A stretch of DNA of 46,241 bases from Thermoleophilia bacterium. GTDB taxonomy: Bacteria > Actinomycetota > Thermoleophilia > BMS3ABIN01. Below, piece by piece: positions 35,697-42,417 of this stretch (position 1 is its first letter; every line of letters begins with the position of its first letter). The position numbers and the translations under genes were made by a program. Where the stretch lies: positions 1-46,241 of the forward strand of contig JACWAD010000043.1 of the NCBI GenBank assembly GCA_014874175.1. Reading direction: 5' to 3'. A model generated the notes under the pieces. The model saw only the letters and a program-made list of their open reading frames with translations. It was not told the origin of the DNA and did not search any database.

Positions 35697-35821
35697 TAAA
35701 ACCAGTTCTGCCGATCACCGGGGCATCTATCGGAACCTGTTTGTATGTCTTTAACAGCTCCTGGAGGATATCTCCCGTCAGGGCAGAATCTGCAAACAAA
35801 ACCACAAGGGGAGGTAACAGC

Positions 35822-36148
35822 ATGGCTGGCAACAAGGCGTTGCAGGAGAAGTTTACGTTTGCCACCGTTATTATCGGGATCGCATTCCTGCTGATTGTTT
35901 TCCTCGTCTCGGCGCTGCTTTTTCGGAATTCAGACAAGGCGGCGGAAAACATCGTCGCCGTGCTGGGTGCAGTGACGGGCGTGCTGGGAACGATGATCGG
36001 CTACGTGGCCGGCCAGTCGGGCAAGGAGAAGGCGGAGAGGCGGGCGGCGGCGGCCGAGCAGCGGCTGACGGCGGTGGCCGAGAAAGGCGATAGCAATATT
36101 ATTGCCGAGGCCAAGGCTGAGCACCCGCACCTGTTCAAGGACTGGTAG
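35822..36148 (+). CDS. Small hypothetical protein with two TM segments and a charged C-terminal tail
   Basis: FTFATVIIGIAFLLIVFLVSALLF and IVAVLGAVTGVLGTMIGYVAGQSG then an Ala/Glu/Arg-rich helix; GGGGAGG RBS upstream. Confidence 0.65.
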   Translation: MAGNKALQEKFTFATVIIGIAFLLIVFLVSALLFRNSDKAAENIVAVLGAVTGVLGTMIGYVAGQSGKEKAERRAAAAEQRLTAVAEKGDSNIIAEAKAEHPHLFKDW

Positions 36149-36163: not shown

Positions 36164-36943
36164 TTATTGTTTCGCCACCGTATTCAAATAGGTAATGATA
36201 TTCGCCTTGTCCTCGGCGCTGATTCCGGAGCCGGTAAAACCAGCCATCTGGTTTACGATGGCGCTCCACTCCTGGCCCGTATGCTGACCGGGTGGATAAA
36301 GCGCATGGCACTGCGAGCACTTGACCTGCCAGGTTTCCTGAGCCGCGTCGGGCGACGGCGTCTGCGGCATCTTTGCCGGCGGAGGAATCGGCACGGACGG
36401 GCTTTGCTTGGGTGGCCCGCCGGTGTGGCATTTGTTGCAACTGGTCTGGCTGGAATGGCACTGGAAGCAGTAAGCCATCCGCGGCCGGTTGGTGGGGTTG
36501 ATGTTGAGATCATGGGCAATATTGCGGTGGCAATCGGTGCACTTGGCCCCCAGCGCCAGATGTTTGGCGTGGGAGATGTTGATGTTTAGAACGTTGTGCT
36601 TAAAGCCGGCAGTGTCGTTCTTGCCGGTCATGTTCTGATGGCAGCGGACGCAATTGCCGTTCACGCGGTCGGGCTTGGCCGAGTAGCCGCCGCGGTAGCC
36701 ATCGGTAATGAAGCTGCCGCCGCCGGCCGCGTGACATTCAATACAGCCGACAGTGCCGTAACCGGGATGTACTTTCGAGGGCTGGCTGATATCGGCTGTC
36801 TCGCCGGTTCCGTGGCATGTCAGGCAAAAAGTAGGGCTTGTGGTTGTAAAATGAGCCAGCCCCAAAAGCGGCGACACCGCCGCCAGAATTACCACTACGA
36901 CGATCAGCCCCCACACCGGCTTGGAAAACTTTGGTTTTTTCAT
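36164..36943 (-). CDS. Membrane-anchored heptaheme cytochrome c
   Basis: N-terminal TM anchor then 7 CxxCH motifs: CLTCH, CIECH, CVRCH, CTDCH, CFQCH, CNKCH, CSQCH; last heme in a class-I-like tail (TGQEWSAIVNQMAGFTGSGISAEDKANIITYLNTVAK). Confidence 0.93.
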   Translation of the reverse strand: MKKPKFSKPVWGLIVVVVILAAVSPLLGLAHFTTTSPTFCLTCHGTGETADISQPSKVHPGYGTVGCIECHAAGGGSFITDGYRGGYSAKPDRVNGNCVRCHQNMTGKNDTAGFKHNVLNINISHAKHLALGAKCTDCHRNIAHDLNINPTNRPRMAYCFQCHSSQTSCNKCHTGGPPKQSPSVPIPPPAKMPQTPSPDAAQETWQVKCSQCHALYPPGQHTGQEWSAIVNQMAGFTGSGISAEDKANIITYLNTVAKQ

Positions 36944-36955
36944 CGTTCGCCCAGC

Positions 36956-39310
36956 CTATTCCTTGATTTTGCCAACGGTGACGATGATATCGTCCCAGGC
37001 CTGCCCGCCGCCGACCGGATCCGTCATCACCGGGACAATGGACTTGGGATTTGTGCCGATACCGCCCTTTTCCTTCCACCAGATGAGCTCCGTATTGGGG
37101 TTTTTCAGCTCCCTGGGCACCTCGTCATCGTTAATCTTCTCGCCCTGGGCGATGCGGCCGTATCCGCTGTGGCCAACGCCATTGGCCATCGCCACCACGC
37201 GCGGATGAATGCCCTCGGTCAGGAAGGCGGTCGACTCAAGAGCTCTTATTCGCGGATTGAGCTGGCTATCATCCACCGGCGTGATTCCCTGGCCGGTGCG
37301 GGCAGTCCGCACCACCCTGACCTTGTCGCCGTCCTTGATGCCGAGCTGCTTGGCCGTGACCGGATTGATCCAAACCGGGTTGTCATGAAGGATCTCGTCC
37401 AGCCACATGCAATTGGCAGTCTTGTCGGTCTGAACTGCGGTATCAAAAATGGTTAGCACCAGCTCGTCTTTTGACAGCAAGGAAAATGCCGGGACAGCTT
37501 CATATACCGGCAGCGGCGAGAACCCTTTATCCTTGAGCCGGGACGAAAAAACCTCGATCTTGCCGGAAGGAGTGTTGAAGCCGCCGTTATTAAAGGAGCC
37601 ATAGTCGGGCTTGCTTCTGGGGTTAAACCAGACGCCGTGCTGTTTCAGGTAATCGATGCCGCCTGCCGCGGCCAGGCCGCTAACATTCTGGATGCGGCCC
37701 TTCAGGTAATCTTCCACCGATCTGAAGCCAAAATACTGCTCCATACCGCCTTTCACCGAGTTTGCCAGCGCCGTGGCAATTTCAAAGAAGGATTTGGAGT
37801 CGCTCAGCGGCGGCACCACCGGCTGCCGCAGGGCAATAAACGGAACCTGTTCCAGGGAAGGCCTGACTTCAATGTCCCAGCCTTCCAGGTACGTCGTTTC
37901 CGGCAGTACGATGTCGGCCAGGGCGGCGGTCTCGGTCATGAATGGGGTAACGGCAAGGTGAATCGGCACTATCGTATCATCCTTGAGCAGATCGGCCAGG
38001 CTGCCGCCGTCTGGATTTGAGTAGACCGGATTGTAGGAATGCGTTATCAGAAGGCCCACCTGGTAATTGCGGTCACGGATAAGCTGCCAGGAGCGGTCTA
38101 TAGACTGCTGGCTGGCAAGCGGCAGGTCGGCAGGATTGCTGAGGGGAGTAGGCGCCGGCGCCGGAGGGGCCGGGTCGGCGTCGGGCAGATTATACTCGCG
38201 GGGCAGACAGAGCCCGCCGCGGTTGTCTATGTTACCGGTAATGATATTAAGCAGCATCACGGCGCGCTCGTTCTGGGTGCCATTAACCATGCCGTCAGAC
38301 AGGGTTGTGGCAGGGCTGGTGGAGGCAAATTCAGTCGCCACGCGCCTGATAACCGCAGCGCTAACACCTGACGCCGACGCCGCCTTCTCGGGCGTAAACT
38401 GGGCCAGGTGAGACGCAAGGTCCGCGGAGCTGATGTTGGTCCACTGATCGATGAAGGCGGCGTTGTGCAAACCTTCCTGCATGATCACGTTTGCCATCGC
38501 CAGCGCCACAATTGCGTAAGTCCCGGGGTTGATGTAATAAACCTCATTGGCGCGCGTCGATGTATTGGTAAGGCGCACGTCGAACACCACCATTTTCGCC
38601 TGGTTTACCTGAACGCCATCAATTAGCCGGCGGGCAAACCCCACAAACTGGGGATGGCTTTCAAGCGGGTTGGCGCCAAAAGCAAGGATGTACTTGGTGT
38701 TGGCAATGTCGGGCATGTCCCCGGCCGCCCCCCAGGTCAGCTGGGTGGCCACTTGTTTATTGGCCCCAAAAATACTTGCCGCCCCCAGCGCGTTTGCCGA
38801 GCCAAATGCGTAGGCCAGGCGCCTCCCCAGCACATCATGCTCCAGATCCTCGGTCATATAAACGAGTTGACCCGGTTTGGATTTAAGCGGCTGCATTGCC
38901 TTGGCCACCTCATCATAGGCCTGCTCCCATTTAATCTTGGCCCAGCGGTTCTGGCCGCGGGCGCCGACCCGCTTGAGCGGCGTCAGGATGCGGTCGGGAT
39001 CGTAGAGCGCGTTGATGCCGGCCTGGCCGCGGGCGCAAAGCGCGCTGCCGTTGCTGATGTGTTTGGGGTTGCCGCCGATCTTGACCAGCTTGCTCTCTTC
39101 AACATAGCCGATAATGCCGCAACCCGCCGGGCACTGCGTGCAGGTGCTGGGCAGGAAAGAGCGGGGGAGGCCGGAGACCCGGTTGACAGACCGCCCGCCA
39201 TCCATCATCTCCATCGCCTGGGCAAGGGGGTGCAGCTGGCTCTCGATCGCCAGCAGCGCCGTTCCCGCTGCTCCCAGCTTGAGAAAATTCCTGCGGCTGA
39301 TGCTTCGCAT
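36956..39310 (-). CDS. Molybdopterin oxidoreductase-family (CISM) catalytic-type subunit with Tat signal
   Basis: SISRRNFLKLG Tat motif, CTQCPAGCGIIGYV...CARGQAGINALYDPDRILTPLKRVG, YILAFGANPLES, C-terminal dinucleotide-binding domain (NPVWINPVTAKQLGIKDGDKVRVV). Confidence 0.93.
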   Translation of the reverse strand: MRSISRRNFLKLGAAGTALLAIESQLHPLAQAMEMMDGGRSVNRVSGLPRSFLPSTCTQCPAGCGIIGYVEESKLVKIGGNPKHISNGSALCARGQAGINALYDPDRILTPLKRVGARGQNRWAKIKWEQAYDEVAKAMQPLKSKPGQLVYMTEDLEHDVLGRRLAYAFGSANALGAASIFGANKQVATQLTWGAAGDMPDIANTKYILAFGANPLESHPQFVGFARRLIDGVQVNQAKMVVFDVRLTNTSTRANEVYYINPGTYAIVALAMANVIMQEGLHNAAFIDQWTNISSADLASHLAQFTPEKAASASGVSAAVIRRVATEFASTSPATTLSDGMVNGTQNERAVMLLNIITGNIDNRGGLCLPREYNLPDADPAPPAPAPTPLSNPADLPLASQQSIDRSWQLIRDRNYQVGLLITHSYNPVYSNPDGGSLADLLKDDTIVPIHLAVTPFMTETAALADIVLPETTYLEGWDIEVRPSLEQVPFIALRQPVVPPLSDSKSFFEIATALANSVKGGMEQYFGFRSVEDYLKGRIQNVSGLAAAGGIDYLKQHGVWFNPRSKPDYGSFNNGGFNTPSGKIEVFSSRLKDKGFSPLPVYEAVPAFSLLSKDELVLTIFDTAVQTDKTANCMWLDEILHDNPVWINPVTAKQLGIKDGDKVRVVRTARTGQGITPVDDSQLNPRIRALESTAFLTEGIHPRVVAMANGVGHSGYGRIAQGEKINDDEVPRELKNPNTELIWWKEKGGIGTNPKSIVPVMTDPVGGGQAWDDIIVTVGKIKE

Positions 39311-39322
39311 GCGTAGCTCCCC

Positions 39323-40243
39323 TTAACTGAGCGGGATCGTCTGCCCGCCGATGACCATCACAAAGCGCATTGCGTATACACCGATATTGACCAGGATCGA
39401 AGCAACCACTATCGCTGTTAAATTCTTTCGCGTCGGCCCCAGGACCAGCACCATCGGCACAATGGAGCCGAGGAAAATCTCCACTCCCAGGAAGATGGGG
39501 GCAAAGTTGCCGGTCAGGATGAGCATGCCGGCCTGATAGGCGTCCGAATGCGCGGTAAGCAAAACCAGAATGTCCGACACAATCAGGAACAGGTCCAGCA
39601 TGATTGTGTAGGCCATAAACTGCGCCAGCTGAATGATCAGCTTCCTGTCCTTTGCCCGCTGCTCTTCCGTGGCGCTTTTGTCAAACCATTTCCAGCGGAC
39701 GGCGGCAACCACGACAACCAGGCCAATTCCGGACACCATAGCCGACACGAGAAAGATTGTGGGCATGGCGGCCGTGTTCCAGAGCGCCCGCGCCTTGGCC
39801 AGCGCCAGGATGAACCCGGTATAGCCGTGGACCGATATCGCCAGGGGAACGCCGAGAATGCCCAGGATCTTCGCCGGCGTCTGGTGGTTGGTGAAGACCA
39901 TGACTGCGTACACGATGCCCATGATCGGATAGGCCGTCAGCAGGAAAGAGCCGTAGGTAATTGGTGAAGTCCAGTTATAAAAAAGGAACAGGTGCCAGAA
40001 ACGCAACGGTTGCCCCAGGTCGGCGATCAGGTTCAGGGGAGCGATCATCAGGAGGATTGGCGCCAGCACGGCTGTTATCCTGCCAATTGGCTTGAACTCC
40101 TTTCGCCCCAGCAGCGTCGCCACTACCGATATGACAAAGGATCCGGCGCTCAGTCCGGTGAAGAAAAAGTACTGGGCAATGTACATCACCAGCGGCAGCT
40201 GGTGCTGAACCGAGTAGACTACATTTACGTCTGTGTTGTCCAT
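39323..40243 (-). CDS. NrfD/PsrC-family membrane subunit
   Basis: MYIAQYFFFTGLSAGSFVISVVATLLG, LNLIADLGQPLRFWHLFLFYNWTSPITYGSFLL, multiple TM helices; start at MDNTDVN inferred. Confidence 0.92.
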   Translation of the reverse strand: MDNTDVNVVYSVQHQLPLVMYIAQYFFFTGLSAGSFVISVVATLLGRKEFKPIGRITAVLAPILLMIAPLNLIADLGQPLRFWHLFLFYNWTSPITYGSFLLTAYPIMGIVYAVMVFTNHQTPAKILGILGVPLAISVHGYTGFILALAKARALWNTAAMPTIFLVSAMVSGIGLVVVVAAVRWKWFDKSATEEQRAKDRKLIIQLAQFMAYTIMLDLFLIVSDILVLLTAHSDAYQAGMLILTGNFAPIFLGVEIFLGSIVPMVLVLGPTRKNLTAIVVASILVNIGVYAMRFVMVIGGQTIPLS

Positions 40244-40286
40244 ATTGGAACCTGGCCCTTCTTTCTTGACCTTTTGCAGCCCGCAG

Positions 40287-40919
40287 TTATAAACGCAGCT
40301 GGAAGAATGTGCCTTCCGTCCAGTAATTGATATTCTTCTCATCGTTGCTCATGGCGGTCTCATCGCCTGCGATGTAAAAGACATTCGGCTCGGTTTCCAT
40401 CTCTTTCTTCAGCACGGTGGTGGCGTTGGAAGCCAGCAGTTGTGAGACCTCGCTTTTGTCGTCGTTGCGGTCGCCGAAGACCATTGCCCTCGTGGGGCAG
40501 CTCTCGACACAGGCGGGCTCCAGTCCGGCGTCGACGCGGTGCTGGCAGAAATAGCATTTCTCCACGATGTTCTTGAACGGGTTGACGTAACGGACATCAT
40601 ACGGGCACGAGGCGATACAATATTTACAGCAGATGCAGCGGTGCGGATCGACAACGACGATTCCGTCGTCACGCTTGTAGGAAGCCTGGGTAGGGCAGTT
40701 GCGTACGCAGATGGGATTGGTGCAATTATTGCAGAGCCGGGGAAGGTAGAAACGTCGCGTGGAAGGGTACGGGCCTTTCTCGATTATCTTGACCCAGGTG
40801 GCGTTGACCTCAAGCGGCACGGCCATCTCCGCCTTGCAGGCGACCGTGCAGGCGTGACAGCCGATGCAGCGGCGCATGTCGATCACCATCGCGTAACGCT
40901 TCGTGGCCAAAGTGGCCAT
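40287..40919 (-). CDS. 4x[4Fe-4S] electron-transfer subunit (PsrB/NrfC-like)
   Basis: CIGCHACTVACKAE, CNNCTNPICVRNCPT, CICCKYCIASCPYDVRY, CYFCQHRVDAGLEPACVESCPT. Confidence 0.95.
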   Translation of the reverse strand: MATLATKRYAMVIDMRRCIGCHACTVACKAEMAVPLEVNATWVKIIEKGPYPSTRRFYLPRLCNNCTNPICVRNCPTQASYKRDDGIVVVDPHRCICCKYCIASCPYDVRYVNPFKNIVEKCYFCQHRVDAGLEPACVESCPTRAMVFGDRNDDKSEVSQLLASNATTVLKKEMETEPNVFYIAGDETAMSNDEKNINYWTEGTFFQLRL

Positions 40920-41127
40920 GCTACCCTCCCTGATTCATGCGGTTAACTGACCGCAGTCACAGCCGTGCCCATCCCTTGCCCTCCATCCCCGGACCCGCTT
41001 AAACCTCACAAACCCTGGCGGCTCGGGCTGCTTCTTGGCAGCAGCACAGGAGCATGCCATCCATGCGCAGCAAAGGATAGGGTAAAATGCAGAGTTTCCG
41101 CCTAGCGTAAATTACCTGCGTATCTTG

Positions 41128-41271
41128 CTACTTGCTATCCTCATCCTGTTGGAGCTTCCTTGCCAACCAGTTAATAAACGGGGGTATGCCGAACGTAAGA
41201 CCAGTCAGTATTAAAACTGTCATGGTCACGTTGACAAGGAAGAACCGCAAATTCTCTTCTATATACCACAT
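41128..41271 (-). CDS. 47-aa single-TM peptide in the respiratory cluster
   Basis: MWYIEENLRFFLVNVTMTVLILTGLTFGIPPFINWLARKLQQDEDSK; start chosen at the inner Met. Confidence 0.55.
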   Translation of the reverse strand: MWYIEENLRFFLVNVTMTVLILTGLTFGIPPFINWLARKLQQDEDSK

Positions 41272-41406
41272 ATCTAATCTTAAGTAAAGCCAAGCTGCTG
41301 GCGCCGGTTTAACGCTGGACCGTCCCACCCCCAAAACGAAGGGTCCAACCCTTGCTGAGCAATTACAGCTTCAGCGCCGGTTTCCCTAAAACCCGGCGCG
41401 GCAGGC

Positions 41407-42417
41407 CTAAGCTCCGTACTGGGCCGCAGCCGCTCCTGCCGCCGGCTGGCCTTTGAAGCTGTGGCACTGGCCACAGAACTGGCCCGCATAGTGCTGGGTC
41501 TTGTCGCCGTGGCAACCCGTGCATGCATCACGACTGGTCACCCGCCACTGATGCGGCCAGTGACAAGACTGGCACTCAGCCTGCGAATGGGCGCCAACCG
41601 CATGCAGCCCCTCTGTCTTCACCTTCCCGTGGCAGGAATTGCAATCCACCACCGGCTTTGCCGCCTGATGCAGTTTGTGACACTGCATGCAGTCCCACTT
41701 CATCGGCCCGTTATCGGGGAAAACCACCGTTCTCGGGGCCAGCTGATGCGGAAACGCCACCTGGACCGGAAGCTTCTGGTGACAGCTCAAACAGGTCTCA
41801 CGCGTCGGCCTGAGCGGGCTGTTCTCCGCCAGAAACGGGTGACATTCCTCGCAATGAAGCTCCGCCATCTGCGGAACCTTGATTGCCGCCTTCTCGCCTG
41901 CGACCTCGCCCGGATGGCAGGCGTCGCATATATATGTCGACGGCTCAAACCGGTGCAGGTTCATGCCATGACAAACCTGACAGGCGATATTTGCCTTGTC
42001 GGCGTGCACCTTGTGACCCGCCGTGTTGGCAACCTGCACCCATTCCGGATCGCCGCTGTAATGACAGCTCTTGCAGGCGGCGTCCGTAACACTGGCATGA
42101 TTCGTAACGCGGTCCGGCTTGTTTATCAAATAATTGACAACAAGCTCCGCGCCCGTTACCGGGCTGACTTCATGGCAGCTGTGGCAGTTGACATTGCTAT
42201 GCGAGCTTGTTGACCACTTGCTCCATGCGGTATCCATGGTGTGGCACAGCCGGCAGAAATTCGGGTCATCCTGCGTATAGCTGTAGAGCCTAAAGCTTCC
42301 GTAGCTGCCACTGAATAAAACAATCAGCGCCGCCGATGCCAATACCGTCTTCTTTGTCCTCGAAAGGCGAGAGATTCTCTGGAAAAGGCTCCTCGCCTTG
42401 CGCCCCAGCCACCTCAT
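41407..42417 (-). CDS. Dodecaheme membrane-anchored cytochrome c (NapC/NirT-type N-terminus)
   Basis: N-terminal TM helix; 12 CxxCH motifs counted: CRLCH, CHSCH, CKSCH, CQVCH, CDACH, CEECH, CLSCH, CMQCH, CNSCH, CQSCH, CTGCH, CGQCH. Confidence 0.95.
   Translation of the reverse strand: MRWLGRKARSLFQRISRLSRTKKTVLASAALIVLFSGSYGSFRLYSYTQDDPNFCRLCHTMDTAWSKWSTSSHSNVNCHSCHEVSPVTGAELVVNYLINKPDRVTNHASVTDAACKSCHYSGDPEWVQVANTAGHKVHADKANIACQVCHGMNLHRFEPSTYICDACHPGEVAGEKAAIKVPQMAELHCEECHPFLAENSPLRPTRETCLSCHQKLPVQVAFPHQLAPRTVVFPDNGPMKWDCMQCHKLHQAAKPVVDCNSCHGKVKTEGLHAVGAHSQAECQSCHWPHQWRVTSRDACTGCHGDKTQHYAGQFCGQCHSFKGQPAAGAAAAQYGA

Follow-up and report, generated by a model that had tools for sequence, protein, structure and literature searches.

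The stretch of DNA analysed here (the window; 46,241 nucleotides) is one contig, JACWAD010000043.1, of the metagenome-assembled genome (MAG) of an uncultured member of the Thermoleophilia (Actinomycetota), which is available as an assembly of 1.78 Mb in 107 contigs with 96% completeness (GCA_014874175.1). Its minus strand carries a cluster of six genes running from position 42417 to 36164, which code for a 12-heme cytochrome (C12), a protein of 47 amino acids (aa), an iron-sulfur subunit (FeS), an NrfD-type membrane subunit (NrfD), a subunit of the molybdenum (Mo) enzyme family (MoB) and a 7-heme cytochrome (C7):

41407..42417, minus strand: C12, a 12-heme c-type cytochrome with 12 CxxCH motifs, an N-terminal helix anchor and an NrfH-like first part
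41128..41271, minus strand: a 47-aa membrane peptide with one predicted helix, kept in the loci of relatives
40287..40919, minus strand: FeS, a PsrB/TtrB/DsrO-like subunit predicted to hold four [4Fe-4S] clusters, with Fer4 matches and 17 cysteines (Cys)
39323..40243, minus strand: NrfD, a putative quinone-interacting membrane subunit of the NrfD/PsrC type, with a PF03916 match and 8 predicted helices
36956..39310, minus strand: MoB, a Mo-bisPGD-family subunit with the domains of this family, a twin-arginine translocation (Tat) signal and F181 at the Mo-ligand column
36164..36943, minus strand: C7, a hexaheme part plus a class-I-like monoheme domain, with 7 CxxCH motifs and an N-terminal anchor

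An earlier note made from the sequence alone had listed six same-strand genes in this order, and all of them were present at essentially the coordinates given there. Two start sites were moved: homologues of NrfD aligned only from position 40243 (previously 40342), which also removed the overlap of NrfD with the FeS gene, and the start of the 47-aa peptide was shifted from 41334 to 41271 on the evidence of its homologues. Scans for sigma-70 promoters and terminators gave no more hits than expected by chance.

MoB consists of the domains PF00384, PF04879 and PF01568 together with the Tat signal, and the Cys residues 57, 60, 64 and 92 of its [4Fe-4S] site are invariant. At the column of the Mo ligand, which is a Cys in PsrA-type enzymes and is occupied accordingly in PsrA, ArrA, acetylene hydratase and PhsA, the window protein has F181, and no Cys occurs anywhere between residues 93 and 367. 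The same position is without Cys in all 20 members of the group (16 from Thermoleophilia, 4 from Chloroflexota), which show F, Y, H, Q, E or G instead, whereas every relative in our tree outside a branch typical of alternative complex III (ACIII) and Qrc has retained it. By comparing the columns with at least 85% conservation in Cys-keeping enzymes, we observed clear changes in the Thermoleophilia MoB family at C181, G237, D265, W309 and R477; at three of these sites (C181, W309 and R477), the Chloroflexota members and the ACIII/Qrc-type proteins differ as well. In PsrA numbering, two sites besides the ligand that are fixed in Cys-keeping enzymes, W300 and R488, are altered in this group and in the ACIII/Qrc-type proteins. 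Judged by these residues, MoB should no longer ligate Mo, and it is probably truly free of the metal. The claim of a complete complex iron-sulfur molybdoenzyme core could therefore not be upheld, and because the ligand is missing, the Mo-family subunit should not be taken as a catalytic site.

Profile comparisons placed MoB nearest to PsrA among solved structures (2vpw_A, E 4e-63) and to PhsA among curated models (352.5 bits, cut-off 694), and its scores stayed below the cut-offs for PhsA, TtrA, ArrA and DmsA. The QrcB model yielded 153 bits (cut-off 440), and the ActB chains were matched only weakly, whereas an ActB-like control gave higher scores in matches covering most of the protein. The AlphaFold model of MoB was too poor to be used (pLDDT 52), and a fold search with it ranked PsrA first, but at template modelling (TM) scores of about 0.3 or less, which are uninformative.

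In a maximum-likelihood tree of MoB, the proteins from Thermoleophilia and Chloroflexota formed one branch (support 100/99), and five Cys-less proteins of the ACIII/Qrc type formed a separate one (100/100); forcing both Cys-less groups into one clade was rejected by the approximately unbiased (AU) test (p = 0.0003). With two more Chloroflexota rows added, the group held (SH-like approximate likelihood ratio test, SH-aLRT, 99), and the Cys state needed two changes. The ACIII/Qrc-type references were MAG proteins, including two ActB/QrcB-like ones from Chloroflexota; a characterised QrcB sequence was sought in 8 and then in 39 genomes and not found, and the tree is limited by having no characterised QrcB or ActB among its rows. 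One of these references (L092) matched the solved ActB chains along most of its sequence and adjoins a 5-heme protein. Sister to the Cys-less two-cytochrome branch are Cys-keeping proteins encoded on a plasmid of Azoarcus KH32C, in a Nitrospiraceae MAG (UBA9217) and by a paralogue in the same family (genome G009). These uncharacterised proteins share 31–36% identity with the window MoB, and their genes resemble the cluster in combining FeS and MoB with NrfD and/or TorD. In contrast to the window cluster, they retain the Cys that ligates Mo and are not accompanied by C12 or C7. The pair of C12 and C7 was absent from every neighbourhood of a Cys-keeping relative that was inspected. The tree thus bore out a placing outside the ACIII/Qrc-type branch, and a loss of the Mo ligand that is independent of the ACIII/Qrc type and coincides with the acquisition of two multihemes is well supported by these comparisons. 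As a separate observation, the FeS motif of three sister MoB proteins that keep the ligand Cys (L059, L060 and L061) reads CWQCVNTDAN and is without its usual third Cys; the window MoB shows the opposite pattern, an intact FeS site with a lost Mo ligand.

The 19 CxxCH motifs in two membrane-anchored multiheme proteins counted in the earlier note were confirmed (12 in C12 and 7 in C7, both with predicted membrane anchors) and are not due to chance, as they recurred in alignments of relatives: 12 motifs were present in 17 of the 18 aligned C12 rows, with a frameshift in the remaining one, and each of the 16 Thermoleophilia rows of C7 had 7. The C12 gene of one relative (G001, L024:11337-12481) has a frameshift near its end, which leaves 11 hemes in one frame and the last in another and may be an assembly error or real. 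Outside its motifs, C12 contains 12 conserved His, one per heme, which is the number required for twelve bis-His hemes. Its first part starts with a CxxCHxM motif (C55-M61) with an invariant M61, and residues 20-119 matched NrfH (2j7a_C) in a profile comparison; the NrfH model TIGR03153 gave 35 bits, under the cut-off, and scores of 35-40 against the required 134.2 do not qualify as an NrfH equivalog. Both cytochromes matched Pfam/NCBIfam entries of the cytochrome c7/c3 type, those of C7 being cytochrome c7 and the DHC/SorB type, and the last three hemes of the hexaheme part of C7 aligned with an ActA-like cytochrome (probability 84%). The AlphaFold model of C12 (pLDDT 46) was too poor for reading. 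The micro-membrane protein also stood up as a gene: its 47 aa with the motif MWYI..FF..N..T..L..FG.PP.INWL are encoded between C12 and FeS in each of the 16 loci of relatives checked (tblastn, E 1e-12 to 3e-26). It was not seen in the four Chloroflexota loci.

The FeS subunit matched Fer4_11 (8e-28), and its 17 Cys are sufficient for four clusters, which agrees with the PsrB-like 4x[4Fe-4S] subunit originally suggested. It scored 204 bits with TtrB (cut-off 416) and 193.5 bits with DsrO (cut-off 200), the latter being the nearest approach of any of the six subunits to a respiratory NCBIfam cut-off. NrfD matched PF03916 (6e-47), its eight hydropathy peaks correspond to eight predicted helices, and D75 within the motif 'LIxDLxQPLRF' is invariant, in what we take to be the usual region of the quinone site. 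Its best solved match by profile was PsrC (2vpw_C), tied with ActC; the scores with the NrfD equivalog model (74.8 of 347.6 bits) and the QrcD model (40.5 bits, cut-off 570) were too low for an assignment to either. No subunit of the six reached the cut-off of a respiratory model in the NCBIfam search, and none is therefore recognised by a curated respiratory family.

Orthologues of MoB with 62-87% identity were found in 17 of the 18 other genomes of the family searched, the exception being a genome of 69% completeness, and the rest of the class yielded nothing beyond remote matches. The named relatives are MAGs labelled as Thermoleophilia, Actinomycetes or Gaiellales (Actinomycetota). Sixteen of the family loci contain C12, the 47-aa peptide, FeS, NrfD, MoB and C7 in that order and in largely the same neighbourhood; dnaX and ybaB usually follow downstream if the contig is long enough. 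The seventeenth locus (L013) is broken off by a contig end. Outside the phylum, we analysed two named Chloroflexota MAGs (L056 and L058) and two loci (L168 and L169) from 400 genomes drawn from that phylum. All four contain FeS, NrfD, MoB and C7, and three the 12-heme C12, which is lacking on the short contig of L056. C7 is longer in three of them (9, 9 and 16 hemes), and three have a gene for a Band-7-type protein next to the cluster. The six-gene order is thus constant in the Thermoleophilia family and rearranged in the Chloroflexota, and the recurrence of these parts in differing orders suggests that the subunits work together.

Three known types of complexes share parts with the cluster. 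Like it, Qrc combines an anchored multiheme cytochrome, a Mo-family subunit without Mo (in the cluster probably so, with F181 in place of the Mo ligand), a four-cluster subunit and NrfD (PMC6303296, PMC13059093), and it is electrogenic with a quinone site on the outer side (PMC6303296). It differs in having only one multiheme cytochrome, the hexaheme QrcA, instead of two with 12 and 7 hemes, in the 10 helices of QrcD (PMC6303296) against 8 predicted for NrfD, and in its occurrence in sulfate reducers rather than in Actinomycetota and Chloroflexota. ACIII (ActABCDEF) likewise has a Mo-family domain without Mo ligand as well as multiheme and monoheme cytochromes, and C7 joins an ActA-like heme part to a class-I-like domain. 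However, ActB is a fusion of the Mo-like domain with an FeS domain, whereas MoB and FeS are separate genes; ACIII has two NrfD-like subunits (ActC and ActF) and the cluster one, and the cluster has an additional 12-heme cytochrome and a MoB outside the ActB/QrcB-like branch. Psr and Phs share the PsrA/PhsA-like MoB and the PsrB- and PsrC-like partners, but Psr, Phs, Ttr and Arr carry the Mo-ligand Cys that MoB lacks, MoB reaches only half of the PhsA cut-off score, and the cluster has two multiheme cytochromes added. The inner-membrane Cbc complexes of Geobacter (Cbc3-Cbc6) contain multihemes as well as membrane subunits and are associated with electron transfer to the outside of the cell (PMC11434368, PMC10989804); they are set apart here by description, as the excerpts of these sources name no Mo-family subunit, and an identity with CbcMNOPQR was dropped on the same ground. 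The cluster consists of known parts in an arrangement for which we found no description in the open-licence literature, and the gene order and heme complement, unrecognised at first sight, still have no described counterpart there.

Taking the composition, conservation, Tat signal, lost Mo ligand and separate branch as given by the sequences, we infer that the subunits assemble into one complex and propose a direction and partners for its electrons. Our preferred explanation, to which we assign a probability of about two thirds, is a Mo-less quinone:multiheme-cytochrome complex, most likely working as a quinol oxidase. It would be a membrane complex located at the outer face of the cytoplasmic membrane and transfer electrons between menaquinone and c-type cytochromes. 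Menaquinol would be bound by NrfD on the outer side, the electrons would go to the FeS subunit with its four clusters, and MoB, a former molybdoenzyme subunit, would serve as scaffold and one-cluster relay. C7 and C12 would collect the electrons and pass them on to soluble or surface partners, and C12 with its NrfH-like CxxCHxM start may itself be in contact with the quinone. The predicted outward orientation of MoB, FeS, C7 and C12 and an NrfD of the 8-helix kind with an invariant Asp are in keeping with a quinol that is oxidised on the outer face, followed by relay through FeS and transfer to the hemes. Named members of the 8-helix PsrC/NrfD group are mostly quinol-oxidising (PMC8076601, PMC6303296). 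Of the earlier proposals, that of a quinone-linked electron conduit found support, and that of a complete core did not. As to origin, the best reading is that a Psr/Phs-like molybdoenzyme was disarmed separately from Qrc and ACIII. With somewhat more confidence than doubt, we regard the complex as a third class of quinone:cytochrome oxidoreductases, after Qrc and ACIII, that evolved independently around a molybdoenzyme subunit which had been disarmed. With its 8-helix NrfD and two multihemes, this class would be common to Actinomycetota and Chloroflexota.

The genome contains genes for menaquinone synthesis of the futalosine type and two other Rieske/cytochrome b systems for quinol:cytochrome electron transfer. 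One, on contig C30, is a cluster of multiheme, Rieske and cytochrome b genes, and the other, on C101, is QcrCAB-like. The cluster on C30 starts with a NapC-like cytochrome (7 CxxCH, C-terminal helices; G000:C30, L136:6779-9507) directly before genes for a Rieske protein, cytochrome b and a subunit-IV-like protein, and by its sequence is a multiheme bc-type complex. Further multihemes were sought by a motif search of the genome (first 100 places listed) and by reading contigs C73-C107; within this range of an incomplete assembly, the C30 cytochrome was the only other multiheme gene, and no dedicated surface conduit was seen. Extracellular partners, as suggested in the earlier note, therefore receive no direct support.

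Several observations speak against our proposal, and they bear on two alternatives. The stronger one shares the composition claimed above and reverses the direction: as a cytochrome:menaquinone reductase, C7 and C12 would be fed by an extracytoplasmic donor, and NrfD would reduce menaquinone. It is possible but rather doubtful. Qrc, which works in this direction, is built of the same kinds of parts (PMC6303296), the two other quinol-oxidising complexes would make a further quinol oxidase partly redundant, and full-length COX1 could not be found in the genome of the window or in most of its family. Against it, NrfD is of the 8-helix and not of the 10-helix kind of QrcD (PMC6303296), and no extracytoplasmic donor enzyme is known, a search for one not having been made.

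The second alternative is a genuine oxidoreductase, in which MoB would hold Mo or W on bis-pterin without a protein ligand and act on a small substrate, with C7 and C12 as the link to cytochrome partners. D244, presumably the guanine-side Asp, is retained with most positions of the cofactor domain, whereas the ACIII/Qrc-type proteins have lost it, so MoB may still contain a pterin or Mo without a ligand, in the manner of arsenite oxidase, whose AioA holds Mo without a protein ligand. Next to the position of the lost Cys, 11 of 16 family members have an Asp; the window MoB does not. In most sister genera, MoB and C7 are separated by genes for TorD-type chaperones, proteins that usually go along with the insertion of the Mo cofactor, and the window's genome has molybdenum cofactor synthesis (moaA) and a selenocysteine formate dehydrogenase candidate (G000:C62, L137:7296-11420). 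The in-frame TGA of this formate dehydrogenase-like gene, probably coding for selenocysteine, recurs in most family genomes. Still, we think such an enzyme unlikely: the ligand position varies freely, as expected after release from selection, W309 and R477 are lost as well, as is D265 in the Thermoleophilia, and the window's genome has no TorD match. The decay of a Psr/Phs-like operon that is losing MoB beside unrelated cytochromes, for which the lost catalytic ligand and the frameshifted C12 of G001 could be quoted, is highly improbable given the open frames, fixed heme numbers and MoB identities across the whole family and the same association in a second phylum despite a different gene order.

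Two further features of the window lie outside the cluster. A small SLATT-like membrane protein (35741-36148, plus strand) adjoins it and is conserved there in two members of the genus (G001 and G002). At the contig edge (45851-46240, minus strand), an Ig/CARDB-like C-terminal domain had been considered as part of a third multiheme, which was dropped when the domain recurred in heme-free proteins; it is present in several copies in the genome and also ends 6-heme proteins beside another Mo enzyme and TorD (L140 and L141).

So far, Qrc and ACIII are the two examples of respiratory complexes with a metal-less Mo-family subunit. If our explanation is true, the cluster would add an independent third case, and the conversion of a substrate reductase to a quinone:cytochrome complex would be a repeatable route. 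Because Cys-keeping sisters are still extant, one of them in the same bacterial family, close before-and-after pairs may be available for studying the role of the disarmed subunit. For these little-known uncultured actinobacteria with few cytochromes, the complex is a candidate for the link from quinone to c-type heme.

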